This document shows positions 1,115 through 62,580 of a stretch of DNA of 64,000 nt, piece by piece. The translations under genes were made by a program, and so were the position numbers. Under the pieces are notes generated by a model. It was given only the letters and a program-made list of their open reading frames with translations, ran no database searches and was not told where the DNA came from. Origin of the DNA: Nibribacter ruber (GTDB lineage Bacteria; Bacteroidota; Bacteroidia; Cytophagales; Hymenobacteraceae); contig NZ_CP047897.1 of the NCBI RefSeq assembly GCF_009913235.1, positions 3,719,001 to 3,783,000 of the forward strand, in the 5' to 3' direction. Each line of letters begins with the position of its first letter. The stretch's first letter is position 1.

Positions 1115-1152
1115 CGTTTTTAGGCTGTTTTTCAGAAAATAGGCCAAAAACG
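1115..1152. repeat. 38-bp intergenic palindrome, copy 1
   Basis: Near-perfect inverted repeat beginning CGTTTTTAGGCTG and ending GGCCAAAAACG. It sits between two minus-strand genes, just downstream of the MoxR stop codon. The centre reads CAG, that is CTG on the transcribed strand. Confidence 0.9.
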
Positions 1153-1154
1153 AA

Positions 1155-2117
1155 TTACAAAAGTTCTTTGACTATCTGCTCTACGGTAATGCCCTGGGCC
1201 TCTGCCTTAAAGTTGCGCACCAGCCGGTGTCTTAAAATGGGCACCGCCACGGCTTTCACGTCTTCAATGTCTGGCGAGTATTTACCGTTGAGCAGGGCGT
1301 TGCACTTAGCGCCCATGATCAGGTGCTGCGAAGCTCTGGGACCTGCGCCCCACTCCAGGTATTGTTTGGCCTGCTCAGCGGCCATGTCTGAGTCTGGCCG
1401 GGTTTGGTGCACCAGTTTCACGGCGTATTCTACCACATTGTCTGTCACGGGCACGCGGCGCACCAACTGCTGGAACTCTACAATCTCCTCAGAGGTGAGA
1501 ATAACCTGCGGTTGATAATTACGATCCCCGGTAGTGTTCTTGACGATCTGCAACTCTGAGGCGTAGCTAGGATAGCTCAACGCCACGTGAAACATGAAAC
1601 GGTCCAGCTGGGCCTCGGGTAAAGGATAGGTTCCTTCCTGTTCAATGGGGTTTTGGGTTGCCAGCACAAAGAACGGGCGCGGGAGTTTGTAATGATGGCC
1701 GGCCACCGTTACGGAGTATTCCTGCATGGCCTCTAAGAGCGCGGCCTGGGTTTTGGGAGGGGTGCGGTTAATCTCATCTGCCAGCACTATGTTGGCAAAC
1801 ACGGGGCCTTTCACAAACTGAAAGTTGCGGTTCTGGTCCAGGGTCTCAGAGCCCAGAATGTCTGAGGGCATCAAGTCTGGCGTGAACTGTACCCGGTTAA
1901 AGGACATGTCCAGAGACGAAGCGATGGTATGGATGAGCAGGGTCTTGGCCAAGCCCGGTACGCCCACCAAAAGACAATGCCCCTGACAAAAGACTGCGGT
2001 GAGCACTAGTTTCACTACCTCCTCCTGTCCAATGATGGTTTGGGAGATTTCAGAGGTAAGGCGCCTGTAGGCGTTGTGTAGCGCGTCAGCGGCTTCTTTG
2101 TCAGAGGCAAATGGCAT
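1155..2117 (-). CDS. MoxR family AAA+ ATPase
   Basis: A 320-residue AAA+ ATPase of the MoxR family, cytoplasmic chaperone-like ATPases that usually act with von Willebrand factor A-domain proteins to mature or activate client complexes. Walker A (GVPGLAKT) is near residues 52-59, Walker B (VLADEINR) near 111-118, and a sensor-1-type stretch (FVLATQNP) near 150. Full length for the family. The start is 13 bases downstream of the stop of the SurA-like gene, so the two are probably cotranscribed. The usual partners (DUF58 and VWA proteins) are not in this window. The client is unknown; linkage to periplasmic foldases suggests, but does not show, a cell-envelope role. Confidence 0.93.
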   Translation of the reverse strand: MPFASDKEAADALHNAYRRLTSEISQTIIGQEEVVKLVLTAVFCQGHCLLVGVPGLAKTLLIHTIASSLDMSFNRVQFTPDLMPSDILGSETLDQNRNFQFVKGPVFANIVLADEINRTPPKTQAALLEAMQEYSVTVAGHHYKLPRPFFVLATQNPIEQEGTYPLPEAQLDRFMFHVALSYPSYASELQIVKNTTGDRNYQPQVILTSEEIVEFQQLVRRVPVTDNVVEYAVKLVHQTRPDSDMAAEQAKQYLEWGAGPRASQHLIMGAKCNALLNGKYSPDIEDVKAVAVPILRHRLVRNFKAEAQGITVEQIVKELL

Positions 2118-2130
2118 ATAAGGAGCGGGT

Positions 2131-3486
2131 TTACTCGTCTAATTTACAAGCCTGAAAGTCTGGGGCCACGTCTACAAACACAGTGCTCTTGTTTTTCTCA
2201 AACCACTCATTGATGGCTTTGTTGCGTTTGTTGCTCAGGGCGGCGGCGGCTATCTTCTGATAATCGTCTTTCAAATTCGCCTGATGCGGAGGTGTCTTGG
2301 ATTTCAGGTACAAGATGCGGAGGGCCTCTTTGCCGTCTTCTGTGCGGTACGGCAGGGGAGCACTGATGCTGCCTACCTGCATGGTGTCAATGACAAAGAA
2401 AATGGCCGGGTCCAGTTTGTCTACGGGCAGGTACGTGGTAGGGCTGTTACCCAGAGTAAGCATGCCGCCGTTGCCTTTGCTGGTCATGTCATCTGAGAAG
2501 TCTTTGGCGGCCTTGGCAAACGTGGTGCTGTCTTTTTGGATCAAAGCTTTAATGCTATCCAAAGCCTGGGCGGTGGCTTGCATGTCTACCTGCGCGGTGG
2601 CGGGCTTGATTAAGATGTGACGAGAGTTGTATTCTTCGCCGCGCACTTCAATCAGCTGGATCAGGTGAAACCCGAACATAGACTCAATCACCGGAGACAT
2701 CTCGCCTGGCTTTAATTTAAGGGCAGCAGCCTCATATTCTGGTACCAACTCGCGGCGCTTGAAAAAGCCAAGGTTGCCCCCCTCTGCGGCAGAGGCCGGG
2801 TCTTGCGAGTATTGCTTGGCCAGCGCGGCAAAGTCCTCACCGTTCACAATGCGCTTTCTGATTTCTTCCAGCTGCTTTCTGGCCTGAGCCTTTTGGGCGC
2901 CGCCAATCTGGGCAATCTTCACAATCTGGCCCACTTCTACTTCGGTAGAGTAATACGGGAGGCTGTCTTGCGGAATCTGGAGGAAGAACTGCTTCACTTC
3001 TTTGGGCGTCACCTTGATTTTGCCGGCTATCTCCTTTTCCATTTTCTGGATGGTCAGGTTCTCCCGCATGCTTTTGCGCAGGTCTTCCCTGATCTGGCTC
3101 ATGGGCTTGTTAAAGTAGGCCTCCAGTTTCTCTGGTCCGCCCACCTGGGCCACCATGTAGCTTAGGCGCTGCTCTAGCTCCCCGTCTACCTGGGCTTGTT
3201 CCACTATCACGGAGTCTACTTCGGCACGGGTCAAGAGTACCTTGTTCTGGATCATGGACTGCAGGATGCTGCAGCGCAGTTCCTGCGTGGCCTGATATCC
3301 TTGGCTGACCGCCTGGGCCTGCTGCAACTCCAGTTCTGACCGCAACACAATGTGGCCGCCCACGCGGGCAATGATATTGTCCAGCAAGATGGTCTGTTGC
3401 GCCTGTGCCTGGTTGCCCAGGGTGCAGGCTAACGCCAGCGCAAACATGCTTTTTAAAAGAATAGAAAAGTTAATACGGGTTTTCAT
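2131..3486 (-). CDS. SurA-like periplasmic peptidyl-prolyl isomerase
   Basis: A 451-residue secreted protein with an N-terminal signal peptide (hydrophobic core about residues 10-24, likely cleavage after AQA near 29). A SurA-type N-terminal helical region is followed by two parvulin (PpiC/rotamase) domains at about 180-285 and 285-400; the first shows the typical GGNLGFF and FGFHLIQL motifs. In Bacteroidota such proteins are expected to chaperone outer-membrane beta-barrel proteins in the periplasm. It follows the larger parvulin lipoprotein gene by 104 bases and is followed by MoxR after 13 bases, so the three may form one envelope-biogenesis cluster. Confidence 0.9.
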   Translation of the reverse strand: MKTRINFSILLKSMFALALACTLGNQAQAQQTILLDNIIARVGGHIVLRSELELQQAQAVSQGYQATQELRCSILQSMIQNKVLLTRAEVDSVIVEQAQVDGELEQRLSYMVAQVGGPEKLEAYFNKPMSQIREDLRKSMRENLTIQKMEKEIAGKIKVTPKEVKQFFLQIPQDSLPYYSTEVEVGQIVKIAQIGGAQKAQARKQLEEIRKRIVNGEDFAALAKQYSQDPASAAEGGNLGFFKRRELVPEYEAAALKLKPGEMSPVIESMFGFHLIQLIEVRGEEYNSRHILIKPATAQVDMQATAQALDSIKALIQKDSTTFAKAAKDFSDDMTSKGNGGMLTLGNSPTTYLPVDKLDPAIFFVIDTMQVGSISAPLPYRTEDGKEALRILYLKSKTPPHQANLKDDYQKIAAAALSNKRNKAINEWFEKNKSTVFVDVAPDFQACKLDE

Positions 3487-3557
3487 GTCAGGTATTTAAA
3501 GCCGAACCTTCTGAGAGGAGCTGACTTTCAGGGCAAAATATGATTAATCTTAACAAA

Positions 3558-3565
3558 CAAAGCTA
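3558..3565 (-). promoter_or_regulatory. Candidate -7 box for the SurA-like gene
   Basis: On the minus strand the sequence reads TAGCTTTG, matching the Bacteroidota -7 consensus TAnnTTTG, 72 bases before the ATG. No clear TTG -33 element was found at the expected distance, so this is tentative. Confidence 0.3.
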
Positions 3566-3590
3566 GACAAACGGCTCCACTTTAAGAAAC

Positions 3591-6013: not shown

Positions 6014-6056
6014 GGCCTGTTTTCAGGGTCTTTTGCTGAAAACAGGCCAAAAACGG
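6014..6056. repeat. 38-bp intergenic palindrome, copy 2 (diverged)
   Basis: Two perfect 13-base arms (GGCCTGTTTTCAG and its complement) surround a 9-base loop, followed by AAAAACGG. The left CGTTTTT flank is lost and the centre is enlarged, so this is a diverged family member. It lies between two minus-strand genes. Confidence 0.75.
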
Positions 6057-10578: not shown

Positions 10579-10623
10579 CCGTTTTGATTTTGGCTCGTTT
10601 TCTGGGAAATAGCCCAAAAACGG
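10579..10623. repeat. 38-bp intergenic palindrome, copy 3 (with insertion)
   Basis: CCGTTTT, then about 7 extra bases, then GGCTCGTTTTCTGGGAAATAGCC and AAAAACGG: a family member with a short insertion in the left arm. It lies upstream of guaB. The core is still foldable. Confidence 0.75.
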
Positions 10624-11513: not shown

Positions 11514-11551
11514 CGTTTTTGGCCTGTTTTCCAGGAAATAGCCCAAAAACG
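11514..11551. repeat. 38-bp intergenic palindrome, copy 4
   Basis: Intact copy with CCAG centre in the divergent gap between the rhodanese and pnuC genes. It ends 12 bases before the pnuC ATG, so it would sit in the pnuC 5' leader. Confidence 0.9.
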
Positions 11552-14146: not shown

Positions 14147-14184
14147 CGTTTTTGGCCTGTTTTCTAGAAATCAGACCAAAAACG
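14147..14184. repeat. 38-bp intergenic palindrome, copy 5
   Basis: Copy with a CTAG centre and two arm mismatches, between two plus-strand genes. It ends 25 bases before the NadR-like GTG start. Confidence 0.88.
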
Positions 14185-15653: not shown

Positions 15654-15691
15654 CGTTTTTGGGCTATTTTCTGGAAAACAGGCAAAAAACG
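15654..15691. repeat. 38-bp intergenic palindrome, copy 6
   Basis: Intact copy with CTGG centre between two plus-strand genes, starting 2 bases after the stop codon of the aldose epimerase-like gene. Confidence 0.92.
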
Positions 15692-16187: not shown

Positions 16188-16225
16188 CGTTTTTGGGCTG
16201 TTTTCTGGGAAATACGCCAAAAACG
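16188..16225. repeat. 38-bp intergenic palindrome, copy 7
   Basis: Copy with CTGG centre downstream of the NADAR gene and upstream of the exporter operon. Confidence 0.9.
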
Positions 16226-19445: not shown

Positions 19446-19483
19446 CGTTTTTGGCCTTTTTTCTGGAAAATAAGCCAAAAACG
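19446..19483. repeat. 38-bp intergenic palindrome, copy 8
   Basis: Copy with CTGG centre, 13 bases after the stop of the ABC ATPase gene, at a convergent junction with the SIMPL gene. It could serve as the operon terminator. Confidence 0.92.
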
Positions 19484-20953: not shown

Positions 20954-20991
20954 CGTTTTTAGGCTGTTTTCCCAGAAATACGCCAAAAACG
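20954..20991. repeat. 38-bp intergenic palindrome, copy 9
   Basis: Copy with CCAG centre at a convergent junction, 10 bases after the stop codon of the plus-strand gene and 27 bases from the MscS stop. Confidence 0.9.
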
Positions 20992-24444: not shown

Positions 24445-24482
24445 TGTTTTTGGCCTGTTTTCCAAGAAACAGGCCAAAAACG
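24445..24482. repeat. 38-bp intergenic palindrome, copy 10
   Basis: Copy between divergent genes, with a C-to-T change at its first base. The centre is CCAAG. It sits in the upstream region shared by the CxxC protein and the amidase. Confidence 0.9.
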
Positions 24483-25623: not shown

Positions 25624-25661
25624 CGTTTTTGGCCTATTTTCTGGAAAACAGCCCGTAAACG
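25624..25661. repeat. 38-bp intergenic palindrome, copy 11
   Basis: Copy with CTGG centre between two plus-strand genes, 52 bases after the amidase stop codon. The right arm carries GTAAACG in place of AAAAACG. Confidence 0.9.
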
Positions 25662-28090: not shown

Positions 28091-28148
28091 CACCGGTGCC
28101 CGTTTTTGGCCTGATTTCCGGAAATCAGGCCAAAAACGGGCACCGGTG
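28091..28148. repeat. Perfect 58-bp palindrome built on the 38-bp repeat, copy 12
   Basis: The core copy (28101-28138) has symmetric centre TTTCCGGAAA and is extended on both sides by matching flanks (CACCGGTGCC and its complement), giving two 29-base arms with no mismatch and no loop. It lies at the convergent junction of the PBP1A and DUF354 genes. Confidence 0.97.
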
Positions 28149-32535: not shown

Positions 32536-32572
32536 CGTTTTTGGGCATATTTCCTGGAAACAGGCCAAAACG
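32536..32572. repeat. 38-bp intergenic palindrome, copy 13
   Basis: A 37-base copy (one A lost from the right arm) between the flippase-fusion and P-loop kinase genes, both on the minus strand. It is one of only two copies inside the EPS synthesis genes. Confidence 0.88.
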
Positions 32573-32630
32573 GAGGCTCTCTGGTGGTTGTCTTTCTTTT
32601 TTCTTCTGGGCGGCTTTTGCTTAGCGTGCG

Positions 32631-36969: not shown

Positions 36970-37007
36970 CGTTTTTGGCTTGTTTTCCAGAAAAGAGGCC
37001 AAAAACG
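36970..37007. repeat. 38-bp intergenic palindrome, copy 14
   Basis: Copy with CCAG centre between the epimerase and UpxY-like genes, both on the minus strand; the centre reads CTGG on the transcribed strand. The next copy on the right is 10 kb away. Confidence 0.9.
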
Positions 37008-37192: not shown

Positions 37193-37711
37193 TTACTTGT
37201 GCATGGAGCCCACCTTCTGGCCGGCCCGGTTGCTTCTTTTTTTGGTCTGCCGGGCATACAGCAGCATGCCCAGGGTAGGGAGGTTCAGTAACTGCAAAGG
37301 AGCATTGGCTGGTATTTGTACGCCTTCCCTGTCTACCAGATACGCCTCTGCCATCTTTGCTGATTTAGGCGACTTCAGGTGCGTACTGGTGAACAGGACG
37401 TTGTAGTGCGTTTTAAGAAACTGCTGCATGGCCACAATCTCATCCTCTGGCACCACGGCAGGTTTCTGAGACCATTTCACTATATGCACCACATCTGGCA
37501 AGGACCCAATCCTACCCAGCTGCTGCTCCATGGCCTGAACAAACACATAAGAGCCAAACAGTGGTTTGTGGATGGTTTCCTGTCTTTTTTTCCATTGCTG
37601 CACTTTTCTGTTCAAGGGGCAGTAATGAGGAAATCTGAGTTCCGTGAGGCTTTGCGCTACCTTTCTCTCCCTTCTGGGTTTGGTGCAGATGATGTACCAG
37701 TTTCTCTCCAT
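37193..37711 (-). CDS. UpxY-like NusG paralog (transcription antiterminator)
   Basis: A 172-residue protein with an N-terminal NusG (NGN) domain: NWYIICTKPRRERKVAQSL, then PLFGSYVFVQ (near 50-59) and a VVHIVKW turn (near 76-82). Bacteroidota UpxY proteins are made from capsule operons and let RNA polymerase pass early terminators of their own operon. Here the C-terminal part ends in a basic tail (RQTKKRSNRAGQK) and lacks a recognisable KOW GPF-type loop. It sits between Wzc (154-base gap) and the sugar genes, so may control transcription into the downstream half of the EPS locus. Confidence 0.85.
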   Translation of the reverse strand: MERNWYIICTKPRRERKVAQSLTELRFPHYCPLNRKVQQWKKRQETIHKPLFGSYVFVQAMEQQLGRIGSLPDVVHIVKWSQKPAVVPEDEIVAMQQFLKTHYNVLFTSTHLKSPKSAKMAEAYLVDREGVQIPANAPLQLLNLPTLGMLLYARQTKKRSNRAGQKVGSMHK

Positions 37712-37865
37712 TGGTTTTGCTTGTTGCTAAGAATAGAATTGAGGCCCATGGCGGCCAGGGAAGGTGCCAACTATAGAATTCACTCTGGCAGCAGAGGAGT
37801 ACTTGTGTTTAGCGGGAACCTTTATATAAACGATTTTAATACACTTTTGGCTATGAATTTTTCAA

Positions 37866-40178
37866 TTAAGTATTCTTGGCCAGGTAGGCATTGTTTCCGT
37901 AGTTGAGCTCATACCCATAGCCGTATTCAATGCCGTGGTGGCCTTTGAACAAGCCCCTGGGTTTCACGCCGTTAAACACAATGGCCATGTTGTTCATGAA
38001 CTTGAACTTGTTGTTTTTAGACAGCCGTTTTACAATGCTCATGGGCGTATAGCCGTGGCGCATGATGAGGAGCGTCATGTTGCAGAACTCAGTAAGCAGC
38101 GAGGCCCCAGAGATGATGTCTGCGGGAGCAGTGTCCACCAGAATGTAGTCAAACTCGGCTTCCAGGTAGCAGAAGAGATCTTCCAGCTTTCCGTTGAGCA
38201 ATGATTCTGTGCTGTCTCCCATGTAGGAGCCCGCAGGAACAACAAACAGGTTCTCAGATTCTGAGCTGTTGATGATCTGGTACGGCTCTATGTCCTCCAT
38301 CAGGTATTCGGTGATGCCTTTGAAGTTGGTCAGGTTGAACAGGCGGGTGGTAGCAGGATTGCGCAAGTCAAAGTCCAGCAGCACCACCTTTCTGCCCGAG
38401 GAAGCCAGGCTGTGGGCCAGGTTGGTGCTCACGTAGGTCTTTCCTTCGCCGGCAATGCTGGAGGTGACCATGATTTTCTTTTTCACGAACGTGCGGCCAA
38501 ACAAGCCAATGGTGGCCCGCATGTGTCTGAACTCCTCAATCACGAAGCCGTCTGTGGGTTTTTGGTGCAGCTTGTCCTTGGTTTTGGTGTACTGCAGCTC
38601 TGCCACCACGGGTATGTTGGTGTAGGCCAGAATCTCTGACAGGAAGAGTAACTTGCCGTTCATCATTTCCTTGCCGGAGATCAGGACCACGCCCATTACG
38701 CAGGAAAGCACGGCCGCAATCAGGTACACGTATAAAGAACGCGGCGCAATGGGGTAGAGGGAGGACTCTGCCATGTCCACAATTCTGGTGTCTTCATCTG
38801 TAGGTGCGTAAGACAAGACCGTCTCTTCTCTTTTCTGCAACAGGAAGTTGTAGGCGTCGTTCTTGGTGGCCTGCTGCCGGCTGATCTCCAAAAGCTCTCT
38901 TTCCTTGCGCGGAATGGTAGACAGCACGGAGTTGTATTTGCTGCTGTTGGAGGCTATGCTGCTGCGGCTGGCCTGAAGGGCAGACCGCTGGCTGCGGATA
39001 TTTTCCAGGATGCTGGGCCGTATTCGGTCAATCTCACTGGCCAACGCCAGCAGGATAGGGTTGTTTTCTGCGGTGGTGCTGAGCAGGCGCTGGTATTCAA
39101 TCTCTGAGTCGTAGAGTTTCTGCAGCAGTTGCGTAAGGGCCGGGTCTTTGATGCCGAGGGTAGACGGGGCCATGCCACCCGAATTGCTCTTAAGCACCAC
39201 ATACTGTTCCACCTCGCTCAGTATGGCCAGTTGCAGGTTGATGTCAGACAGGTTACGGTCACTCTCTCCCACGCTGCTGAGGTACATTTTGCCCTGTTCA
39301 CTCAGGTTCACCACTCCCTGGCTGGACTTGTAGTGTACCAATTCATTTTCCAGCGCTTTCAATTCTTTGCCTACCAGCTGTATGCGGTTGTTCACGTACT
39401 CCAGGGTTTTGGCGGCCAGGTCGTTGCGCTTGTCAATGGCTACCTGGTTGTATTCCTGTATCAACTTATTCAGGATGTCTTCGCCGCGTTGGGGAGAAGC
39501 ATCTGTAAAGTTGAGGTTGACCGCGGTAGACAATTTGTTTTCTGCCTGGATGGAAAGGTTGCTGATGATGTTGTCTGTGACTTTCTTAGGGTGCATAATG
39601 GCAAAGAACAGGGGCAGGCTTGGCGTATCGCGCTTGTTGTCATTGGGCAGGAACATGAGCTCACCGTACGGGGTGTTCACCCAGGTGTTCATTGGGTAGG
39701 CTTTGTGGCCAACGGTTACCTGCTGCTTGCCTTTGTCAAAGGCAAAGTACACCTTCTCGGTCTCGCGGGCTTCTTCTGGGTTTCTTAACTTTATCTTGAT
39801 GGGAGAAGAGGTGTAGGCCGGAATGGCTCTGAACTTGTCTTCCTCAAACTGCGGAGCGTACAGGCCTAACTCGTCAATCACTTTTCTGGCCAGAGCTCTG
39901 GACTGGATCACCTTGATCTCATTCTCCACAATGTTGTTGGAGGTGAAGGCGTCTATGGACTGGGTCATTCTGGACTCGTCCACCCCCTTCTTCTCATCTT
40001 TGATGATGATGGTGGCAGAAGTTTTATAGGTGGGCACCGCCAGGTACTGCAGGTAGGCCCAGGCGCCGGCCATGGCAAAAATGAACAGAAGGAGAAACAA
40101 TGGCCAGTAGGGTACATATTTATGTGCCAACGAGTCAAACAGGCTCTCTTCCTGGGTGGTTTGGTTGTTATCAGTCAT
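37866..40178 (-). CDS. Wzc-like tyrosine autokinase / chain-length regulator
   Basis: A 770-residue BY-kinase: a Wzz domain with transmembrane segments near 30-50 and 505-525, a long periplasmic coiled-coil region between them, and a C-terminal cytoplasmic kinase with Walker A (SIAGEGKT near 575-582), Walker A' (LLDFDLRNP near 608) and Walker B (YILVDTAP near 693). The C-terminus is Tyr-rich (IEYGYGYELNYGNNAY), the usual autophosphorylation cluster. It controls EPS polymerisation and export with the Wza-like protein, whose gene ends 15 bases upstream. Confidence 0.94.
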   Translation of the reverse strand: MTDNNQTTQEESLFDSLAHKYVPYWPLFLLLFIFAMAGAWAYLQYLAVPTYKTSATIIIKDEKKGVDESRMTQSIDAFTSNNIVENEIKVIQSRALARKVIDELGLYAPQFEEDKFRAIPAYTSSPIKIKLRNPEEARETEKVYFAFDKGKQQVTVGHKAYPMNTWVNTPYGELMFLPNDNKRDTPSLPLFFAIMHPKKVTDNIISNLSIQAENKLSTAVNLNFTDASPQRGEDILNKLIQEYNQVAIDKRNDLAAKTLEYVNNRIQLVGKELKALENELVHYKSSQGVVNLSEQGKMYLSSVGESDRNLSDINLQLAILSEVEQYVVLKSNSGGMAPSTLGIKDPALTQLLQKLYDSEIEYQRLLSTTAENNPILLALASEIDRIRPSILENIRSQRSALQASRSSIASNSSKYNSVLSTIPRKERELLEISRQQATKNDAYNFLLQKREETVLSYAPTDEDTRIVDMAESSLYPIAPRSLYVYLIAAVLSCVMGVVLISGKEMMNGKLLFLSEILAYTNIPVVAELQYTKTKDKLHQKPTDGFVIEEFRHMRATIGLFGRTFVKKKIMVTSSIAGEGKTYVSTNLAHSLASSGRKVVLLDFDLRNPATTRLFNLTNFKGITEYLMEDIEPYQIINSSESENLFVVPAGSYMGDSTESLLNGKLEDLFCYLEAEFDYILVDTAPADIISGASLLTEFCNMTLLIMRHGYTPMSIVKRLSKNNKFKFMNNMAIVFNGVKPRGLFKGHHGIEYGYGYELNYGNNAYLAKNT

Positions 40179-40193
40179 ACGCGTACTTCTGAG

Positions 40194-40988
40194 TTATCTG
40201 GTTAAGCGATCTACGGCTACTACTACTACAGTCAAACCACTGAAAATCAATGGCAACAGCTGTCTCACTGGATTAGCGGTGGCTACTTTGGCTTTGTCTG
40301 GCTCTACATACACAATGTCATTGGGCTGCAGATAGTAATACTGGGAGTTGAAGAGCTCTGTAGAGTTGAGGTTAATGCGTTTAATGATTTTCTTGTCCTC
40401 TACCTCCCGTATGATCAAAACATTGCTCCGCTTGGCATAAATGGTCAAATCTCCGGCCAGGCCCAGGGCCTCCAGCAGCGTAATCTTCTCATTGGGGGCG
40501 TTCACCACGGTGGGATTGGCTACTTCGCCCAACACGGTCACCCGGTAATTCAGGTACCGTATGTTAATAATGGGGTCTACCAGTAGTTTACGGTCTGTAA
40601 GACTTTTGGTGATGCTCTCTTTTAACTGTCTTTTGGTAAGGCCTAACGCCTTGATGTTTCCTAAGATGGGAAACTGAATGTACCCCTGTGCATTGACCAG
40701 GTACCCCGAGACCGAAGTAGCCCTGCCTGAAAAGTCCGGCGCCTCTGAGTCTGTGACGTTGGGCGTGTTGAATATTTTGGACGCCTCTGGGTTCAGGCTA
40801 CTCACGGAGATGCTCAACAGGTCGTTCTTCTGAATAAGAGGCTCAATGTTCTCTACGCCCGACGGTAGCACGCTGTCCTGAATGTTGTTGAAGTACACCA
40901 CCTTCTTAGTGCTGGAACAGCCGAAAACGAAAAGACTGCACTGCACAAGTAACAGGTAAGACAGAAATTTTCTGAGAGGTACAATCAT
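40194..40988 (-). CDS. Wza-like polysaccharide export lipoprotein
   Basis: A 264-residue outer-membrane export protein with a lipobox (LFVFGCSSTKK, Cys near residue 24), a polysaccharide-export domain (SVSGYLVNAQGYIQFPILG near 90-110) and a SLBB domain (VTVLGEVANPTVVNAP near 147-162). A C-terminal hydrophobic segment (LLPLIFSGLTVVVVAV, near 243-258) is present, as usual in Bacteroidota Wza homologs. It is the first gene of the Wza-Wzc pair and follows a terminator-like hairpin, so transcription probably begins just upstream. Confidence 0.93.
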   Translation of the reverse strand: MIVPLRKFLSYLLLVQCSLFVFGCSSTKKVVYFNNIQDSVLPSGVENIEPLIQKNDLLSISVSSLNPEASKIFNTPNVTDSEAPDFSGRATSVSGYLVNAQGYIQFPILGNIKALGLTKRQLKESITKSLTDRKLLVDPIINIRYLNYRVTVLGEVANPTVVNAPNEKITLLEALGLAGDLTIYAKRSNVLIIREVEDKKIIKRINLNSTELFNSQYYYLQPNDIVYVEPDKAKVATANPVRQLLPLIFSGLTVVVVAVDRLTR

Positions 40989-41047
40989 AGTTGTGGGTAT
41001 GGTAGGATTAAAAGTGTTTCAATAAGCGTACTTGTATAAGGGTATAG

Positions 41048-41074
41048 GTTCTCTGGCCACATGGGCCAGAGAAC
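41048..41074 (-). terminator. Hairpin between T9SS protein and wza-like genes
   Basis: A perfect 11-base stem (GTTCTCTGGCC with its complement) and a 5-base loop, 44 bases after the T9SS gene stop on the minus strand. A weak T-rich tail follows. It separates the T9SS gene from the EPS export operon. Confidence 0.6.
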
Positions 41075-41117
41075 TCAGTTATTTGAATGTGTTAAACCGC
41101 ACGCCCTAAGGCGGATG

Positions 41118-44100
41118 CTACCGGTTGTGCAGCAATTTTATAGTCTCCGTGCCCAGATTTGTCTCTAGTCTGAGAATGTAAAGCCCAGAAGGCAGTCCGG
41201 CAGCGCTCACTTCTAACGTGTTGGCTACGCCCGCTTCGGCGAGGCCCTTTTTGGCGTCAATAACCTGTTCTCCCTTACTGTTGTAGAGAACGATGGTGTA
41301 GGCACCTCCTTGGGGGAGGGTAAAGTTGACGGTGGCAGTGCCTTTGAACGGGTTAGGGTATGCTCTCAGGTTCTGGCCGTGTTCTTTCAACAAGCTGCCG
41401 TTGGCCATAGCCGTGGCGGTAGAACTGCCATCTGACACCAGGAACCCAATGGCTTTCCAAGCGGTAGTGCTCACATCTGTGGCCATCAAGACCGTTTCTC
41501 CTGTGTACGTGGCTTTTGTGCTGCTTACGTAATTATACATACCCCTGATCAGGTAAATAGGAGAGCCAAAGGATATAGCGTCTAAAGAAGACTCCTTGTA
41601 GAGAATGTCACCCCCGTTTTCTTGAGAAGTGTACACGATCCTCAGTTTACCGGCCGCCTCATTCAAAATCACGATGGGGCGCGTGCCGTTCTCCTGGGTA
41701 ATCTCATAAGGGTTGTCCCATACTCCGTTGGGCCGGCGTACCAGCAAGGCTAGTTTGGTGTAGCCAGGCGTTTCATAGCTGGTCTTTACAGCACAATAAA
41801 GGGTGCCATCACTAGCCAGAACCATGTTCATGTGGTCATCAGAGAAACCCGTGCCTACGTTCAAGGCCGTCTGGGAGCCAGGTGACTCATCTTCTGACCA
41901 GGTGGTGGCGCTGTCTCCGGTGGTGTGGGTCCTCATGCCGAAGAAATCTGTGCGCTGGTTGCTCCACAGCACGGCCATCTTGTTCTGGGTAGGCAGGGCA
42001 ACAATGGCGCAGATGTCGTCATCTGCTATGCCGCTCTCAATGACGATGGGCTCGCTCCAGGTGGTATATGGGCTGTCACTGTAGCGTACGTTCACTGAGT
42101 CTGGCGTGTCATAGGCTACCCACATTCTACCGTTGCCATCTATGTCCAGGGTGGCGGTCTCAGCATCTGGGCCCAGTACAAAAGAGGATCTTGTCGGACG
42201 GCTACTCCAAAGCTTATAGGCGGCGGCGGCGGCATCATACTCCAAGGAGATCAGGTAAGAATTGTTGTTGCCTCTGAACAAGAGAACATGCGCCAAATTG
42301 CCTACTACTTTGCAATCTGCCCGGGCTAGTGCGCCGGAAGAAACCAAAAGTACCTTGGTCCATGTGGTGCCGTCCAACCGCCACAGAAAGGTGCCGTCTG
42401 TGGTAGGCAGCACGGTCCAGAACTTGCCGGCGTAGGTCCATACTTTAGATTGGGGCTTGTCTGCCGTGTTGGTGGAAATGGACATGGGCGTGATGCTGGC
42501 CACGGTGGCAAATCCGCCGCCACTCGTAGGGGTTTGCAGCAAATAGGACTCGCCGGCGGTAAAGCCAGACGCGATGGGATTGGAAGACGCATCCATGATC
42601 TCAGTGCCAGATGCCTTCAAGTCTAGCCGTACGGTGCCTTCTCCCGCGGTGTTGGCCGACAAGTCATACACCGTGCCGTCTGTGCCAACGGCGGTAAGCC
42701 CGGTGAGCGTGCCGCCTGCGGTGCCGGTGGTGGTGAACACAAAGTCATTCACAGACACGCCTGTTACTTTCTCAGAAAAGGAAACCCTGAAGGTAACTGA
42801 GCCCGGCATGATACTGGCAGTGGTGGGGCTCTGGCGGTTGATGCTGGTTACCATAGGCGAGGTTACATCTCCCACGGGGCCAGGGTCTGATTGGTCCGCG
42901 AGTAACTCCATGTCAAAGGCCATGTCTGAGGTGTTTGCTTTGGACTGGTGCACTTCCACGGCAATCACGTTGGGGCCGTTGATGAAAGCGCCATTGCTGA
43001 TGGTAAACGATTGTATTTTGGTGCCATCACCGCTAGAACTCAGAGCAGCCAGCGTATTATAGGCAATTGACCCGGTAGGCATGTTGTTGCGGTATACTTC
43101 TGTGCCGTTCACATACACCACCACGCCATCGTCCATCTTAATATTGACTTTAAAGGAGGTGTAGTTACTTACATCTGTAATGGAAAGGCTTTTTCTAAAG
43201 TAGGTGGTAATGTATTTGTTCTTGGCATTAGGTCCATATCCCACCAGGGTGGCCGCGTCTGTTATTCCGTAGCCAAACTTGCCTACGCCTGTTTTCCAGG
43301 CGGCGTCGCTGAAGGAAGTGGTTCTCCAGGCGGTGCTTTGGTCTGTGCCGTTGTCCAGGTATTTCCAGGAACTGTTAAAGCTGAACAAGGCATTGGCGAG
43401 CGGCACCGGTTCAACCAAGGTATAAGACTCGCCGGAAGTATAGTCCCCCGCAAGGGCGTTAGAAGATAAGTCTGTGATATCCGTGTCAGGGGCCATAAGG
43501 TCCAGGCGCAAGGTTCCTTCACCAGAAGCATTCACGGTGGCGTCATAGTGGGTGCCATTCTCAGAACTTACGTCGGTTACCGTGGCTTCTACAGAGCCGG
43601 TGGCTATTGCCGTGAAGTCATCTGGAGTGACGCCATTCACGGGCTCAGAGAAAATGGTTCTAAAGGTGACTGCCCCGGGCTCTGTGATCTCACTGGAGGG
43701 AGACAGCCGCTCTATGCTTACCACGTACGGTGATACCAAGTCACCGTCTGGTCCATACAGGCTGGAGGACAGCTCCATGTCAAAGGCCATGTCTGAGGTA
43801 TTTACCTTGGACTGGTGGATTTCTACGACAATCACATTGGTGCCACTTACAAAAGGAGCTGAGTTAACCTGGAAGGTGAGGGTTTTGGAGCCGTCTCCGC
43901 TGGAGCTTACCGCAGAAAGGGTATTATACGCGATTGGGCCGGTGGGCATGTTAATGCGGTGTACCTCTACTCCGTTCACATATATGACAGCACCATCATC
44001 TAGCCGGATATTGGCCGTGAAATCCCCCAGGCTGGCAGGATCTGTAATGGAGATAGACTTCCTGAAGTACGTGGTGACGTATTTTTTACTTTTATCTGGG

Positions 44101-44327
44101 CCGAAGCCAATTTGAGTATTGATTCCCTCTACACCATAGCCAAACTTGGCAGAACCTGTCTTCCAGGTGCTGCTATTGAAGGAGGTTGATATCCAAGCCA
44201 TTCCCTGGTCTGTTCCATTGTCCAGATACTGCCAAGAGGAGCCGAACGGGATTAGGGTATTCTGGGCATTTGCATCAAAAATAAAGAGCACGGCAAGTGC
44301 TAAAAGAACAGATAGACTTTTTTTCAT
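41118..44327 (-). CDS. Large T9SS-secreted protein with two duplicated modules and a BNR-like domain
   Basis: A 1069-residue protein with a signal peptide (cleavage after ANA near residue 21). Two copies of a module of about 290 residues follow (about 22-312 and 313-602); each has a beta-sandwich part with SSWxYLDNGTDQ, FGYG, YFRKS and a NVIxVExHQSK ending, then an Ig-like part with a GAVTFRxxFSEPV/KV-type strand and a GEGTxRLDL motif. Residues about 610-975 form a beta-propeller-like (BNR/sialidase-like) region. The last 80 residues are a type IX sorting domain (AYPNPFKGTATV, then GLPSGLYILRL). It is probably surface-attached and may bind or process polysaccharide. The propeller and sorting parts are paralogous to the protein at 48233-49645. 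Confidence 0.87.
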   Translation of the reverse strand: MKKSLSVLLALAVLFIFDANAQNTLIPFGSSWQYLDNGTDQGMAWISTSFNSSTWKTGSAKFGYGVEGINTQIGFGPDKSKKYVTTYFRKSISITDPASLGDFTANIRLDDGAVIYVNGVEVHRINMPTGPIAYNTLSAVSSSGDGSKTLTFQVNSAPFVSGTNVIVVEIHQSKVNTSDMAFDMELSSSLYGPDGDLVSPYVVSIERLSPSSEITEPGAVTFRTIFSEPVNGVTPDDFTAIATGSVEATVTDVSSENGTHYDATVNASGEGTLRLDLMAPDTDITDLSSNALAGDYTSGESYTLVEPVPLANALFSFNSSWKYLDNGTDQSTAWRTTSFSDAAWKTGVGKFGYGITDAATLVGYGPNAKNKYITTYFRKSLSITDVSNYTSFKVNIKMDDGVVVYVNGTEVYRNNMPTGSIAYNTLAALSSSGDGTKIQSFTISNGAFINGPNVIAVEVHQSKANTSDMAFDMELLADQSDPGPVGDVTSPMVTSINRQSPTTASIMPGSVTFRVSFSEKVTGVSVNDFVFTTTGTAGGTLTGLTAVGTDGTVYDLSANTAGEGTVRLDLKASGTEIMDASSNPIASGFTAGESYLLQTPTSGGGFATVASITPMSISTNTADKPQSKVWTYAGKFWTVLPTTDGTFLWRLDGTTWTKVLLVSSGALARADCKVVGNLAHVLLFRGNNNSYLISLEYDAAAAAYKLWSSRPTRSSFVLGPDAETATLDIDGNGRMWVAYDTPDSVNVRYSDSPYTTWSEPIVIESGIADDDICAIVALPTQNKMAVLWSNQRTDFFGMRTHTTGDSATTWSEDESPGSQTALNVGTGFSDDHMNMVLASDGTLYCAVKTSYETPGYTKLALLVRRPNGVWDNPYEITQENGTRPIVILNEAAGKLRIVYTSQENGGDILYKESSLDAISFGSPIYLIRGMYNYVSSTKATYTGETVLMATDVSTTAWKAIGFLVSDGSSTATAMANGSLLKEHGQNLRAYPNPFKGTATVNFTLPQGGAYTIVLYNSKGEQVIDAKKGLAEAGVANTLEVSAAGLPSGLYILRLETNLGTETIKLLHNR

Positions 44328-45129
44328 ACCAACATCACTAAATGATCAAACACTGGTCCTCCTTTACGCGCCGCCGTGTACAATGCCAGAAAAAGTAGCA
44401 TGATTAGCAGACGCCTAAAGCAGACGCTTTCTTCGCAGTTCTTTGAAACCAGCAGGTGCGTGTAGAGCAGGGCCTGATGGTGCTGTAGGGCAGATAAGCT
44501 AAGGGTGCTCCGTAAACATTCAGGCGTTCATAGCACCACATGAACGCAACTGGTGGGGTTGATGCCAGGCTAAGCCTTTAATATGTAGGGGTGATTGTGT
44601 CTTTTACCTGATATTGTTATTATTTCAATAACGGCATAGTGAGAATATAAGAATCTATACGCTGCTAAAAAGTGAATGTTCACGTTTTAATACGGATATT
44701 CTCAAAAATTAAAATATTAGATTACTCTATATAGAATTAGTTCAATTTATGGTGGAAGGTGCATCAGCCTTTCTTCCGGTCTTTCTGCATATAAGCTTTT
44801 TCTGCTAAAAGGCATCAAGAGAAAAGCACTCGCTTAGTAGCCTTGTACTGGGTGAGGCTCACGCTGTTACTGCCAGACAAAAGGCGGGTTTAGGGCAAAG
44901 ACCAACAACGGTGTAACAGCAAGCTGAATTCTCTGCCGCTCCTTTAGGCTTGCCCGATCCAAATAAATTCACTCATTTCTGCAATTTGCCTCGCTACGGT
45001 AAATTTCCCTGGCTGGTTATAATATAAATAAGCCACAAGACCAGAAACGGCCCCTTTTTAGGAATAAGCTAAAGAATAGTCCGTCTCTTGCTTATAGAAT
45101 TCAATATAGGGGATTTTTGATATAAGTAA

Positions 45130-45157
45130 TTGATATACAGGAAGTTGTATAACTTTG
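45130..45157 (+). promoter_or_regulatory. Candidate promoter 1 for the first lyase gene
   Basis: TTG at 45130-45132 and TAACTTTG at 45150-45157 are separated by 17 bases, a good fit to the Bacteroidota TTG / TAnnTTTG arrangement. It would give a leader of about 415 bases. Confidence 0.4.
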
Positions 45158-45250
45158 TTTTGTATTATTTAAGGTAAATGTAGGCAGGATAGAAGAACTT
45201 TGACTGTTTTTTATAACAATTTAATACAATATGGTACTAAAGGGTGGTCT

Positions 45251-45283
45251 TTGAAAAATGTATTGAAAATGTATTTAACTTTG
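45251..45283 (+). promoter_or_regulatory. Candidate promoter 2 for the first lyase gene
   Basis: TAACTTTG at 45276-45283, with TTG at 45251-45253, 22 bases upstream. The spacing is at the long end of the usual range. The -7 box is identical to that of candidate 1. Confidence 0.4.
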
Positions 45284-45579
45284 CAACTACGGAATTGGTA
45301 ATAAGAAGGTTACAAGATTCTGAAAGATTTTTAAAGTCAGTTAAAAAGGCAAAAATACAATTTAGGGCAAGCGGTATCAGAACCTGATTCTGGTTTTAGT
45401 GCAGAAAGATAGAAAGAAGAAACCTTAACCTAATAGGCGTATATGAGGCACTTTTAGAAGGAAGTAGTAAAGTCAGATTTAACTGACTGATTTTCAAACG
45501 CTCAAGCTACTCAATTATTACATAGAGTTTGAGAACTAAGCCAAACCTTTTACAAAATCCCTTTATTAATTTTTTCAAC

Positions 45580-46872
45580 ATGAAGTTTAACACCAAATAT
45601 ATCGTATTGCCATTGCTAGTAGGTTTCATCTCAGCCTCTTGTGATAAGAATGAATTAGATGAAATGACGCCTGCCACTGCGGTTTCTGCCACGTCTAACC
45701 TGTCAAGCAACCTTATTTTTGAAGAAACCATGGAAGGATCTTCTCCTTTCTCTTTGGCGCATGCCCAGGAAGTAGGAGATTGGGACTATGCCTTTCAGAT
45801 TGTAAACACTCCTGTATGGAGAGGCACCAAGGCCGCCCGCTTTGAGATCAGAAAAGACCAGCCGTTGGTACAGGACGGTAAAAGATCAGAAATGACCATC
45901 GTGAAAGGTGCAGACGGTGACATCACCAAGAACACCTGGTATTCTTTTGCCGCCTATTTCCCTTCCAAAGGGTATGAGTATGACACAGAGCGCGAGATCA
46001 TTAACCAATGGTACCAGAGCGGTAGCCCGTCTACCTCACTTAGAACTGACAAAGACAGAATCACTTTTGAGGTAGGAAACACTCCGGAGACAAGAAAGCT
46101 GCATGATTTAGGTGCCATCAAGAAAGACGCCTGGACTGAGTTTGTATTCCACTTCATCCACTCTTACGGTACTGACGGCCTTGTTGAAATCTGGATGAAC
46201 GGCGTGAAAGTGAAAACTATCACCGGGGGTAACATGTACAATGACGTGCTGCCTAAGTGGAAAATTGGTCTTTACAAGTCTGCCTTCAAATATGATGAGA
46301 CCATTGTCACCAACCGAGTAATCTATTTTGACAATGTGAGAGTTGGTAATGCCAACGCCACCTTCGCTGACATGACCTCTGGTACTGCTTCAGGATCAAC
46401 GACCACTACCACCAGCGGAACTACTACCACTAGCGGTACCACCACTACCAGCGGTACTACCACCACTTCTGGTACAACTACAACCACTACCACCTCCACC
46501 ACAGATGTTCAGAAAGTAGTAAGCTTCACGCTGGTGAATGCAACTACAAATAAAGACATCATGACCATTGCTAACGGTGGCGTGATTGACCTGAGCGTAA
46601 TTGGCACAAACAAATTCAACATCAGAGCCAATACCAGCAAGACTACCAGTGGTGTGGTGAAGTTTGTAATGTCAGGTGCCAAGAGCGATACGAGATTGGA
46701 TGATGTAGTACCTTACGCCTTGTTCGGCGACAACAGAGCAGGTGATTATTACTCTTGGAGTGCTACCACAGGTTCTTACACACTTTCTGGAACTACCTAC
46801 ACAGGTACTAAGGACAAAATGGGTTCTGCCACAGCTCCTGCGTACACCATCAAGTTCACTATTCAGAAATAA
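45580..46872 (+). CDS. Secreted polysaccharide lyase (heparin lyase I-like fold) with extra C-terminal domain
   Basis: A 430-residue lipoprotein (MKFNTKYIVLPLLVGFISASC signal, Cys near residue 21). Residues about 45-270 match the polysaccharide lyase family of the heparin lyase I / glucuronan lyase jelly-roll type: FEETMEGSSPF, ARFEIRKDQP, WYSFAAYFP and LPKWKIGLYK motifs. A Thr-rich linker of four TTTTSG units is followed by a C-terminal beta domain (residues about 310-430, VVSFTLVNATTNKD and YALFGDNRAGDYYSW) also seen attached to other secreted Bacteroidota proteins. It should cut uronic-acid polymers outside the cell. Start at ATG 45580 is chosen because it yields the lipoprotein signal. 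Confidence 0.87.
   Translation: MKFNTKYIVLPLLVGFISASCDKNELDEMTPATAVSATSNLSSNLIFEETMEGSSPFSLAHAQEVGDWDYAFQIVNTPVWRGTKAARFEIRKDQPLVQDGKRSEMTIVKGADGDITKNTWYSFAAYFPSKGYEYDTEREIINQWYQSGSPSTSLRTDKDRITFEVGNTPETRKLHDLGAIKKDAWTEFVFHFIHSYGTDGLVEIWMNGVKVKTITGGNMYNDVLPKWKIGLYKSAFKYDETIVTNRVIYFDNVRVGNANATFADMTSGTASGSTTTTTSGTTTTSGTTTTSGTTTTSGTTTTTTTSTTDVQKVVSFTLVNATTNKDIMTIANGGVIDLSVIGTNKFNIRANTSKTTSGVVKFVMSGAKSDTRLDDVVPYALFGDNRAGDYYSWSATTGSYTLSGTTYTGTKDKMGSATAPAYTIKFTIQK
46402..46473 (+). repeat. Four 18-bp in-frame repeats (TTTTSG linker)
   Basis: Four tandem 18-base units of ACTACYACNAGCGGNAC type encode TTTTSG each and connect the lyase domain to the C-terminal domain. Third-position differences between units show they are not freshly duplicated. 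Confidence 0.9.
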
Positions 46873-46929
46873 GGTCAGGCCACTAACTGGCTCTTCCAAC
46901 TGAATACCCAAAACAGATACTAAACCCTT

Positions 46930-46965
46930 AAAAGGAGCAGCCCACCGGCTGCTCCTTTTGTTTTG
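46930..46965 (+). terminator. Intrinsic terminator after the first lyase gene
   Basis: An 11-base perfect stem (AAAAGGAGCAG with its complement), 8-base loop and T-rich tail (CCTTTTGTTTTG), 57 bases after the stop codon. Confidence 0.85.
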
Positions 46966-46985: not shown

Positions 46986-47035
46986 TGGGTCCGTTTTTGG
47001 GCAGTTTTCTGGAAAACTGCCCAAAAACGGACCCA
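46986..47035. repeat. 38-bp intergenic palindrome, copy 15 (extended to 50 bp)
   Basis: The core (46992-47029) is flanked by TGGGTC and its complement GACCCA, giving 25-base arms broken only at the CTGG centre. It lies between the two lyase genes. The whole gap from 46873 to 47215 otherwise holds only the preceding terminator and no gene. Confidence 0.95.
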
Positions 47036-48122: not shown

Positions 48123-48160
48123 CGTTTTTGGGCTGTTTTCTGGAAAATAGCCCAAAAACG
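48123..48160. repeat. 38-bp intergenic palindrome, copy 16 (arm shared with terminator)
   Basis: Intact copy with CTGG centre at a convergent junction. Its right arm CCAAAAACG is also the beginning of the left arm of the hairpin at 48152-48210. Confidence 0.95.
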
Positions 48161-55461: not shown

Positions 55462-55508
55462 AAAACGGAATCGCCCGATGTTGCAGAAACATCGGGCGAT
55501 TCCGTTTT
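55462..55508. terminator. 21-bp-stem bidirectional terminator fused to the palindrome
   Basis: Perfect 21-base arms (55462-55482 and 55488-55508) with a 5-base loop. The left arm starts AAAACGG and the right arm ends CCGTTTT. The T-tract is also the left arm of the adjacent repeat copy. Confidence 0.93.
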
Positions 55509-55540
55509 TAGGCTATTTTCTGGAAAACAGGCCAAAAACG
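55503..55540. repeat. 38-bp intergenic palindrome, copy 17 (arm shared with terminator)
   Basis: Intact copy with CTGG centre; its left arm overlaps the terminator at 55462-55508 by 6 bases. It ends 4 bases before the pirin stop codon, at a convergent junction. Confidence 0.95.
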
Positions 55541-56520: not shown

Positions 56521-56558
56521 CGTTTTTGGCCTGTTTTCCAGAAAAGAAGCCAAAAACG
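56521..56558. repeat. 38-bp intergenic palindrome, copy 18
   Basis: Copy with CCAG centre between two minus-strand genes (pgi upstream, pirin downstream); reads CTGG on the transcribed strand. Confidence 0.92.
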
Positions 56559-56668: not shown

Positions 56669-58360
<1,692 letters not shown>

Positions 58361-58430
58361 TTACATAGAAATGCCAAAGGCCGTATCACCTCTGGCATCC
58401 CTTTGCTATTCGTACAAATCTGCTATTTAG

Positions 58431-59021: not shown

Positions 59022-59190
59022 AAGGAAAGCGAGTCCTTTCAAAGTAAAGCAAGCGAGGTAAGGGTGCCGGCCAGGCTCAAGTACAGAACGGGGGAATTTT
59101 TGAAACCATTGCGCCTCCTATAAACTTACACCTTTCCCGCCAAGGATTCCAGCGCTCGCCATACTTTCTTTCTTTTACTTCCATGTTAAT

Positions 59191-59228
59191 CGTTTTTGAC
59201 TTATTTTTCTGGAAACACCACCAAACCG
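59191..59228. repeat. 38-bp intergenic palindrome, copy 19 (decayed)
   Basis: Same length as the intact copies and CTGG centre, but the right arm is degraded (CACCACCAAACCG). It ends 12 bases before the M20 gene start and is read as protein by a false upstream start. Confidence 0.75.
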
Positions 59229-59240
59229 AACAACCTCTCC

Positions 59241-60578: not shown

Positions 60579-60593
60579 TTTTCTGTAATTTCG

Positions 60594-60643
60594 GCGCTTC
60601 GTTTTTGGCCTGTTTCTGTGGAAAGAGGCCAAAAACAAAGCGC
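60594..60643. repeat. 38-bp intergenic palindrome, copy 20 (extended to 50 bp)
   Basis: Core with a CTGTGG centre flanked by GCGCTT and its complement AAGCGC. It lies between two plus-strand genes, 16 bases after the M20 stop codon. Confidence 0.9.
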
Positions 60644-60724
60644 TTTTTATGCCTCCTTCCTGTTTTTTGATTTGATTAGGAAAAGAGGGGCGTTCATCCA
60701 TTTTACTTCTAAGACATTCCTCTT

Positions 60725-61600: not shown

Positions 61601-61601
61601 G

Positions 61602-61639
61602 CGTTTTTAGCCTGATTTCCAGAAAAGAAGCCAAAAACG
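61602..61639. repeat. 38-bp intergenic palindrome, copy 21 (arm shared with terminator)
   Basis: Copy with CCAG centre, starting 1 base after the ATP-grasp stop codon. Its right arm AAAAACG is the start of the next hairpin. Confidence 0.95.
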
Positions 61640-61682
61640 GAAAGCCCTTGCAATACTCTTATTGCAAGGGCTTTCCGTTTTT
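61633..61682. terminator. 22-bp-stem bidirectional terminator sharing an arm with the palindrome
   Basis: Perfect 22-base arms (61633-61654 and 61661-61682) and a 6-base loop, with A-tract and T-tract ends, at the convergent junction of the ATP-grasp and SDR genes. Confidence 0.94.
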
Positions 61683-61698
61683 AAATATTTGCGGGTTC

Positions 61699-62472
61699 TT
61701 AAGAGAAGTAGTTCACGCTCATGCCACCGTCTACGGCGATGCACTGCCCCGTGATATAGGCCGCCGCGGGCATACATAAGAAAGCCACGGCTCCGGCCAC
61801 GTCCTCTGGGTTGCCAATCACATTGAGAGGCGTACGGCTTAACACGCTTTTCAGGTAGTCCTGGTCTTGTAATACGGTTTCAGCCAAAGGCGTTCTGATG
61901 TACCAAGGCGCCACGCAGTTCACGCGTATGCCGTAGGGTGCCCATTCGCCGGCCAGGTTCTTAGACAGCTGGATTAAGGCTGCTTTGGTCATGCCGTAGA
62001 TAGCGCCCGTGCGCACATGGCCTAAACCAGCCACCGAAGACACGTTCACCACATTGCCCTGCGGCGACTTCTGCAACAACGGCAAGGCATGCTGGCACAA
62101 CTCAAACGCACTGGTGAGGTTGGTCTGCAACAGAAAGCTGTATTCTTCTGGGCTGTATTCCTGGATCTTCTTTCGGATATTGGTACCTACGTTGTTGACC
62201 AAGATATCCAAGCCGCCCCAGGTATTCTGAATCAATTGAAGGAGGTTGTGACGGTCGGCGGCTATGCTCACGTCCGCTACCATGCCCGAGGCTTTGAGGC
62301 CTCGGGCCCGGTAATCTACCACGGCCTGATTAACTTCCAACTCCTTACGAGCTACTAGGAGGACTTCGGCGCCCAACATCAATAGTTCCTCGGCAATGGC
62401 GGCTCCTATGCCTTTGGTGGCGCCCGTGACCAGGGCTCTGCGGCCTTCTAAACTCCAACGGTTCTGTTGCAT
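61699..62472 (-). CDS. Short-chain dehydrogenase/reductase
   Basis: A 257-residue classical SDR (FabG/tropinone reductase-like). The ATG at 62470-62472 ([21 protein letters not shown]) places the TGxxxGIG cofactor motif near residue 17. NNVG is near residue 93, the catalytic Ser in NVSSVAG near 141 and YGMTKAAL with Tyr/Lys near 157-161. An open upstream extension reads the repeat at 62543-62580 and is an artefact. Substrate unknown. It may be a sugar, keto-acyl or other ketone reductase. Confidence 0.92.
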
Positions 62473-62542
62473 GTTCTGTGGTTCAATTTGGTAATGGAAC
62501 CCAAGTCTACGCAGAAACTCTGTAACCTGATGCCTTTGCCGC

Positions 62543-62580
62543 CGTTTTTGGGCTGTTTTCTGGAAATCAGGCCAAAAACG
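62543..62580. repeat. 38-bp intergenic palindrome, copy 22
   Basis: Intact copy with CTGG centre between two minus-strand genes, upstream of the SDR gene. Confidence 0.92.

Follow-up and report, generated by a model that had tools for sequence, protein, structure and literature searches.

A palindromic 38-bp element occurs at 22 places in a 64,000-nt stretch of the Nibribacter ruber genome (G000:C1:3719001-3783000; hereafter the window, meaning the whole stretch analysed), and its best explanation, held with somewhat better than even confidence, is a DNA-level recognition site for a putative symmetric protein, most likely one that marks or organises the chromosome. That a putative protein binds the site is judged likely; that the job of the site is architectural rather than uptake-like or something else is a more tentative proposal, given a little less than an even chance. 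The anatomy of the element, its counts, the conservation of its positions, the independence of its arms in N. ruber, its species dialects and its co-use in terminators were observed directly. The element fits none of the families that were tested; high-copy chromosomal recognition sequences are in themselves an already known kind.

The N. ruber genome (G000; 4.35 Mb in a single contig) belongs to the Rufibacter group and was compared with its nearest relative (G007) and with other genomes of the genus (G001, G005, G006, G009, G010 and G012-G015), within a genus sample of 16 genomes, as well as with an outside sample of 23. Results for 464 kb of G000 refer to the window plus 20 sampled stretches of 20 kb, in which gene positions come from our own gene calls (359 genes), and the analysis of intergenic gaps is limited to gaps of at least 45 bp.

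Copy number and taxonomic range

At up to three mismatches, the half-site CGTTTTTGGCCTGTTTTC has 38 matches in the window, compared with a mean of 0.07 and a maximum of 1 over 100 shuffles, and 22 places match in the 38-bp register with at most 10 of 36 mismatches, the number that a first-pass annotation of the window had counted. Two copies had been described there as imperfect; the one reported at 6014 is genuine and lies in register at 6018, but that at 59191, which overlaps a predicted gene start, matches poorly (10 mismatches) and is probably not a working site. At the same limit 172 copies are found in the 464 kb, and the full genome holds 1,707 matches to GTTTTTNNNNTNNTTTNNNNAAANNANNNNAAAAAC at up to three mismatches (reversed control, 3). 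A dialect-neutral pattern gives 1,020-2,469 matches per genome in the 16 genomes of the genus (control 4-15), including 1,646 in G000 and 1,458 in G007, and 0-62 in the 23 genomes outside it (control 1-57), which is near background; similar copies elsewhere in the genome and in relatives, which the annotation had made a test of its proposal, are thus abundant. The fewest matches in the genus (1,020) and the weakest consensus are both found in G009, where the system may be decaying.

Among the matches listed for a stricter pattern in named genome records, the carriers are Rufibacter species and Sabulibacter ruber. The exact 38-mer has no match in the named genome collection, from which the genome holding the window or one very close to it may be missing. 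In five further genera of the same family, 80 kb of each showed no recurrent palindromes, the listed ones resembling ordinary hairpins. A scan of the window against Rfam 15 gave no match at gathering score, and no published description of the element was found in the literature on Rufibacter genomes, palindromic or intergenic repeats of Bacteroidetes, nucleoid-associated proteins and uptake sequences; the accessible part of PMC7366714 contains nothing on it. In G025, a genome from another family, an interspersed repeat (for example at L321:6917) resembles the element in its core (GTTTTTAGCCTATTTTGTCAAATAACTGGTAAAAC) and has conserved flanks; it was rejected as the same element, its unit being longer and less frequent (17 in 400 kb). 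In a viral collection the sole match to the strict pattern is L192:1275-1310, on a 39-kb contig in which a terminator-like hairpin is directly followed by a site.

Anatomy of the site and independence of its arms

The element consists of two facing 18-bp half-sites around a 2-bp centre. Among 165 inward-facing pairs in the 464 kb, with each half-site scoring at least 11 bits, the centre is 2 bp in 163 and 3 bp in 2, in keeping with the constant 38-bp length noted earlier for the window. Positions 3-7, 15 and 16 of the half-site are nearly invariant, and positions 8, 10, 11, 13, 17 and 18 are variable; by eye there are two T-tracts (positions 3-7 and 14-17) separated by about 10-11 bp, or about one helical turn, with a GC-rich segment between them. 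In 87% of flanks a C or T stands immediately outside the site. The unit terminates in AAAAACG on both strands and, as had been stated, carries no T-run of its own.

In G000 this strict dyad geometry is combined with half-sites that vary independently of each other; the independence does not hold in G012. Over 166 copies of G000, 2,407 of 2,988 arm cells are Watson-Crick pairs, compared with 2,409.0 after permutation of the arms. At the free positions 6-11 the covariation is z=1.0 over 169 copies and z=0.6 over the 157 copies that remain once stem-extended copies, those with at least five perfectly paired flank bases abutting the site, are removed; a second counting tool applied to 50 chosen copies gave a covariation score of 0.089 both for the observed and for the shuffled arms. 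Position by position, values stand above permutation only at position 2, at position 10 as a borderline case, and at some flanking positions outside the site. As the arms vary independently in this genome, hairpin pairing is not what keeps most of its copies.

Placement in the genome

Placement of every copy outside genes had been reported, and this holds in the window apart from 59191; elsewhere in the sample, however, a few copies lie within genes. Proximity to stop codons was also reported correctly: 14 of 21 window copies (59191 left out) stand within 60 bp of one, as do 96 of 166 over the 464 kb. Convergent gaps are occupied most often (40/53), compared with 84/171 tandem and 24/55 divergent gaps, and the density of sites per kb is 2.86, 1.70 and 1.40, respectively; 12 gaps hold more than one site. 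Long-range regular spacing was considered and rejected, as the sites first looked more evenly placed than random intergenic positions, but a rule of at most one site per gap explains the evenness (in a simulation that weighted convergent gaps 40/51, where the gap count itself gives 40/53). In 135 cases considered for a TAnnTTTG (-7) motif before the start codon, none was found in 99, and the site was upstream in 32 and downstream in 4.

Among 160 gene ends beside a site, the site is part of a terminator-like stem, followed by a T-rich tail, at 27, and its edge provides a T-tract at 15; a separate terminator-like hairpin is present at 85, and 33 have none. Where no site is present, 68 of 106 gene ends also have a terminator-like hairpin, the other 38 lacking one (shuffled control 23/81). 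Hairpins below -12 kcal/mol occur in 20% of the flanks abutting sites in convergent gaps, in 9% and 6% of those in tandem gaps and in 2% of those in divergent gaps, compared with 7% at random gap positions. From the minority of copies in terminator stems and the hairpins flanking convergent sites, the element has been drawn into terminators without being itself the usual terminator, and terminator use is a secondary role. The suggestion of a bidirectional terminator variant is therefore retained for this minority and fails at the 85 gene ends that have a hairpin of their own.

Conservation of positions and species dialects

The cross-species comparison of gaps used the G000 matrix at a 10-bit threshold. 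A site is present in G007 in 19 of 19 comparable site-bearing gaps (the poor match at 59191 included) and absent from 18 of 18 site-free gaps, so that presence and absence agree in 37 of 37; one gap has two sites in G007 and one in G000. Fewer of the site-bearing gaps hold a site in the more distant species (G013 9/12, G006 11/15, G001 6/7, G010 9/9, G009 5/10), and some gaps that are site-free in G000 hold a site there (G013 1/7, G006 2/14, G001 2/5, G010 3/6, G009 1/9). In 16 pairs hand-picked out of 22 and compared ungapped, identity between G000 and G007 is 0.83 for the sites and 0.48 for the abutting flanks.

Copies within genes are rare; called genes of score at least 40 contain five places of at least 20 bits, compared with 0.0 in synonymous shuffles. 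Two of the five were followed through 15 orthologues each. The first, within a gene for a P-type ATPase (with PF00122 and an HMA domain), shows no indel relative to its orthologues, in which 1-5 of the 18 fixed positions are mismatched. The second (L016:2511-2548) lies in frame within a long gene that has no Pfam match and whose orthologues have single-codon gaps in places and no insertion of a unit; at most 3 of 18 mismatches are found in 14 of the 16 genomes, G000 included, despite changed residues, compared with 10 of 640 random stretches. As neither copy is an insertion, sites can arise and persist through substitution in place. The earlier view of a mobile or selected element rather than a set of independent terminators is upheld as regards a selected, genome-wide and intergenic element, but not as regards mobility.

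The half-site consensus differs between species, being CGTTTTTGGCCTGTTTTC in G000 and G007, CGTTTTCGGGCTCATTTC in G013, TGTTTTGGGCCTGTTTTC in G006 and CGTTTAGGGGCTGTTTTT in G005, and the difference lies mainly in the reading segment, the GC-rich stretch between the T-tracts. Of the dialects compared, that of G013 stands in the sharpest contrast to those of G000 and G007. In G013, 100 kb of the second contig (155 kb) holds 7 sites, compared with 159 in 380 kb of the chromosome. On that chromosome, one arm of a site tends not to match the other at positions 10, 11, 14 and 18, and within an arm there is linkage between positions 7 and 10; this looks as though two dialects, one older than the other, were present together.

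A proposed recognition site for a symmetric protein

Under the favoured explanation, each copy would be a double-stranded DNA site for a protein of dimeric or tetrameric symmetry, which would read the two halves independently across a rigid 2-bp centre; with the halves read in this way, hairpin pairing would not be needed. The roughly 1,700 copies, in about half of the intergenic gaps of at least 45 bp, would be held in place by selection, and a drift in the preference of the protein would carry the whole set of sites with it, giving rise to a species dialect. In its likeliest role the protein would sit in intergenic gaps, and in convergent ones most often, as an architectural or insulating factor, with sites at gene ends sometimes folded by evolution into a terminator stem. 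Of the options listed in the first-pass annotation, a nucleoid-type site is the best that remains.

The matS, FtsK-orienting polar (KOPS) and parS sequences are sequence-specific DNA sites read by proteins and spread over the chromosome. The 38-bp element is unlike matS or parS in having far more copies (1,707 matches), and relative to sites of this type in general it is longer (38 bp) and stands mostly once per gap. A further and more speculative step, given roughly a one-in-three chance, is that this would be a protein system of one genus, in which a single symmetric protein uses about 1,000-2,500 fixed 38-bp addresses, in about every second intergenic gap, and the two co-evolve in dialects; if true, this would give bacteria an equivalent of insulator or positioned-chromatin sites. 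If a protein reads the sites, each genome would offer more than 1,000 natural binding sites of conserved position, with a differing consensus in 16 genomes, which would allow testing how the specificity of a DNA-binding protein and its full set of sites change together, and asking what the marking of intergenic space does for a bacterial chromosome. For annotation, the copies carry a warning: it is possible to misread them as terminators or as a mobile repeat.

Several observations weigh against a protein recognition site. No binding protein was identified, and genes starting just after a site, looked at by eye, showed no evident DNA-binding protein among their products; the joint shift of about 1,700 sites through selection on each of them is also demanding. 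Half-sites scoring at least 11 bits occur outside full sites 13 times in 79 kb of intergenic DNA, compared with 0.8 expected (15 in coding DNA, with 8.0 expected), so not every half-site is paired. Tandem gaps with the -7 motif are not more often occupied (odds ratio 1.07), and separate terminators are not enriched beside sites (85/160 compared with 68/106), which makes any link to the borders of transcription units weak. The scores of the two arms, with r=0.02 in G000, are correlated in G013 (r=0.51). Lastly, covariation of the arms at positions 6-11 is seen in G012 (z=4.1), G006 (3.9), G015 (3.0), G014 (2.4) and G001 (2.4), the remaining relatives giving -0.4 to 1.4 except G013 at -2.2. Without stem-extended copies the values become 2.4 in G006, 2.2 in G001, 1.7 in G015 and 1.2 in G014; they drop without vanishing, and this subset thus accounts for part of the signal. 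As its full cause it was rejected, explaining G006 and G001 only partly and leaving G012 at z=3.6 (26 copies), so that pairing may matter in some species.

Alternative explanations

An uptake-signal-like sequence, whose copies would mark self DNA for transformation and be spread and homogenised by biased uptake and recombination, is by analogy with known systems an unlikely alternative. In the accessible parts of PMC3630211 and PMC2397512, the DNA uptake sequence (DUS) of Neisseria is described as having thousands of copies and dialects, forming inverted pairs in terminators and being absent from recently acquired genes; a single copy suffices according to the part of PMC2397512 available. The 38-bp element is like the DUS of Neisseriaceae and the uptake signal sequence (USS) of Pasteurellaceae in the range of its copy numbers, its dialects, its permissive and mostly intergenic sites and its co-use in terminators, so far as those systems are covered in the accessible parts of PMC3630211, PMC2397512 and PMC7371117, and it has the chromosome-wide overrepresentation together with species dialects that define sequences of the DUS type. 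The depletion on the second contig of G013 also fits this explanation. However, the element differs from DUS and USS in its obligatory 18-2-18 dyad with a fixed centre and in the rarity of copies within genes. A ComEC-type Competence domain is found in 16 of 16 genomes of the genus, but it is equally common outside it (38 of 39 genomes overall), and being near-universal it is uninformative on uptake. No PilB/PilT/GspE-type ATPase (PF00437) was detected over the Pfam cut-off in the 16 genus genomes, eight of which have weak matches below it, making a pilus route of the Neisseria or Haemophilus type unlikely. Taken together, the absence of a PF00437 match over the cut-off, the uninformative ComEC and the fixed dyad would favour a chromosome-organising or chromosome-marking protein over uptake.

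An RNA hairpin, acting as a terminator or a 3'-end stabiliser and bidirectional through its palindromy, is comparably improbable as an overall explanation. It is consistent with the preference for convergent gaps, with the gene ends at which the site is part of a terminator-like stem or lends its edge as a T-tract, and with the stem-extended copies, which make up 44 of 493 across 15 genomes and have better paired arms in 13 of the 13 genomes that have any, several of the 13 resting on one copy. Arm mismatches in G000 average 2.1 in such copies and 3.7 in others; at least six paired abutting bases occur in 12 of 165 copies, compared with about 0.2 expected, and by eye several stem-extended copies are followed by T-runs. 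Two in the window retain their outer stem in G007, with paired changes there in the 28101 copy. The covariation that persists in G012, and more weakly in G006 and G001, once such copies are removed also points to pairing. In G000 overall, however, compensatory change keeping the stem is not seen, being found in the stem-extended minority and apparently in G012. A fixed 2-bp centre is moreover not a requirement of a hairpin loop, divergent gaps are occupied as well (24/55), and separate terminator-like hairpins stand at 85 of 160 site-adjoining gene ends (shuffled control 23/81). The element is thus like intrinsic terminators in the minority of copies that lie inside terminator-like hairpins or lend them a T-tract, and unlike them in its mostly independent arms in G000, in having no T-run of its own and in the many gene ends with a separate hairpin. 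With no covariation between the arms, a pure RNA hairpin was rejected as the main role in G000 and a secondary use retained; an RNA-stability site as the main role, another of the earlier suggestions, is contradicted in G000 by the same result, though not in every relative.

Short intergenic palindromes, often placed after stop codons, are typical of repetitive extragenic palindromic (REP) and bacterial interspersed mosaic elements (BIME) with REP-associated tyrosine transposases (RAYT). A non-autonomous mobile element of the REP/RAYT type, a miniature inverted-repeat transposable element or similar is a very remote and largely refuted explanation: high copy number, intergenic placement, the G000 site-free gaps that hold a site in distant relatives and the G007 gap with two sites instead of one agree with it, but no target-site duplication recurs consistently among 165 copies (four-base matches are slightly in excess at one offset, 4 compared with 0.8), all 37 comparable gaps agree with G007, and the two followed in-gene copies are not unit insertions. 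Matches to the RAYT family PF01797, present in 15 of the 16 genus genomes, number three genes in G000 and none in G007, at similar numbers of the element (1,646 and 1,458 matches). RAYT-driven mobility, which the first-pass annotation had put forward, was rejected on these grounds, and the association with RAYT genes that it had proposed to look for is lacking, as copy number does not track PF01797. Unlike REP and BIME elements, the 38-bp element has inherited positions, no sign of insertion and a copy number that does not follow RAYT genes.

Copies in the window

The positions of the copies are collected in Table 1.

Table 1. Copies of the 38-bp element in the window (positions counted from its first nucleotide).
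Feature	Position	Strand	Remarks
38-bp site	1115..1152	unstranded	4 mismatches to consensus; G007 gap has a site
38-bp site	6018..6055	unstranded	diverged left arm, 7 mismatches; gap has a site in G007, G006, G009 and G010, not in G013
38-bp site	10585..10622	unstranded	diverged left arm, 7 mismatches; same gap in G007 has two sites
38-bp site	11514..11551	unstranded	divergent gap, between TATTTTTG promoter-like motif and nicotinamide mononucleotide (NMN)-transporter (PnuC-type) gene; gap has a site in G007, G013, G006, G009 and G010
38-bp site	14147..14184	unstranded	
38-bp site	15654..15691	unstranded	
38-bp site	16188..16225	unstranded	
38-bp site	19446..19483	unstranded	convergent gap
38-bp site	20954..20991	unstranded	convergent gap; G001 gap has a site
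38-bp site	24445..24482	unstranded	divergent gap
38-bp site	25624..25661	unstranded	
38-bp site	28101..28138	unstranded	perfect arms within longer stem, ACCGGTGCC/GGCACCGGT flanks; terminator-embedded; paired changes in G007
38-bp site	32536..32573	unstranded	
38-bp site	36970..37007	unstranded	
38-bp site	46992..47029	unstranded	perfect arms, GGGTC/GACCC flanks; terminator-embedded; separate terminator-like hairpin at 46929-46960
38-bp site	48123..48160	unstranded	convergent gap; strong hairpin adjoins right edge
38-bp site	55503..55540	unstranded	convergent gap; strong hairpin adjoins left edge, so CGTTTTT can act as T-tract
38-bp site	56521..56558	unstranded	
degenerate match	59191..59228	unstranded	10 mismatches; overlaps predicted gene start; poor in G007 too (16 bits)
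38-bp site	60600..60637	unstranded	in terminator stem GGCGCTT/AAGCGC followed by TTTTT; G007 retains both stem and T-run
38-bp site	61602..61639	unstranded	convergent gap; hairpin adjoins right edge
38-bp site	62543..62580	unstranded	

Between the copies at 36970 and 46992, about 10 kb of the window (37193-46872) is without sites; the products of two of its genes are a Wzz/AAA_31 protein and a protein with a type IX secretion system (T9SS) tail. The sampled stretch L016 is likewise site-poor, with one copy; of its 13 called genes 7 were scanned, and these include the respiratory genes COX1, COX3, COX15, NrfD and Fer4, and the stretch looks like one long operon.

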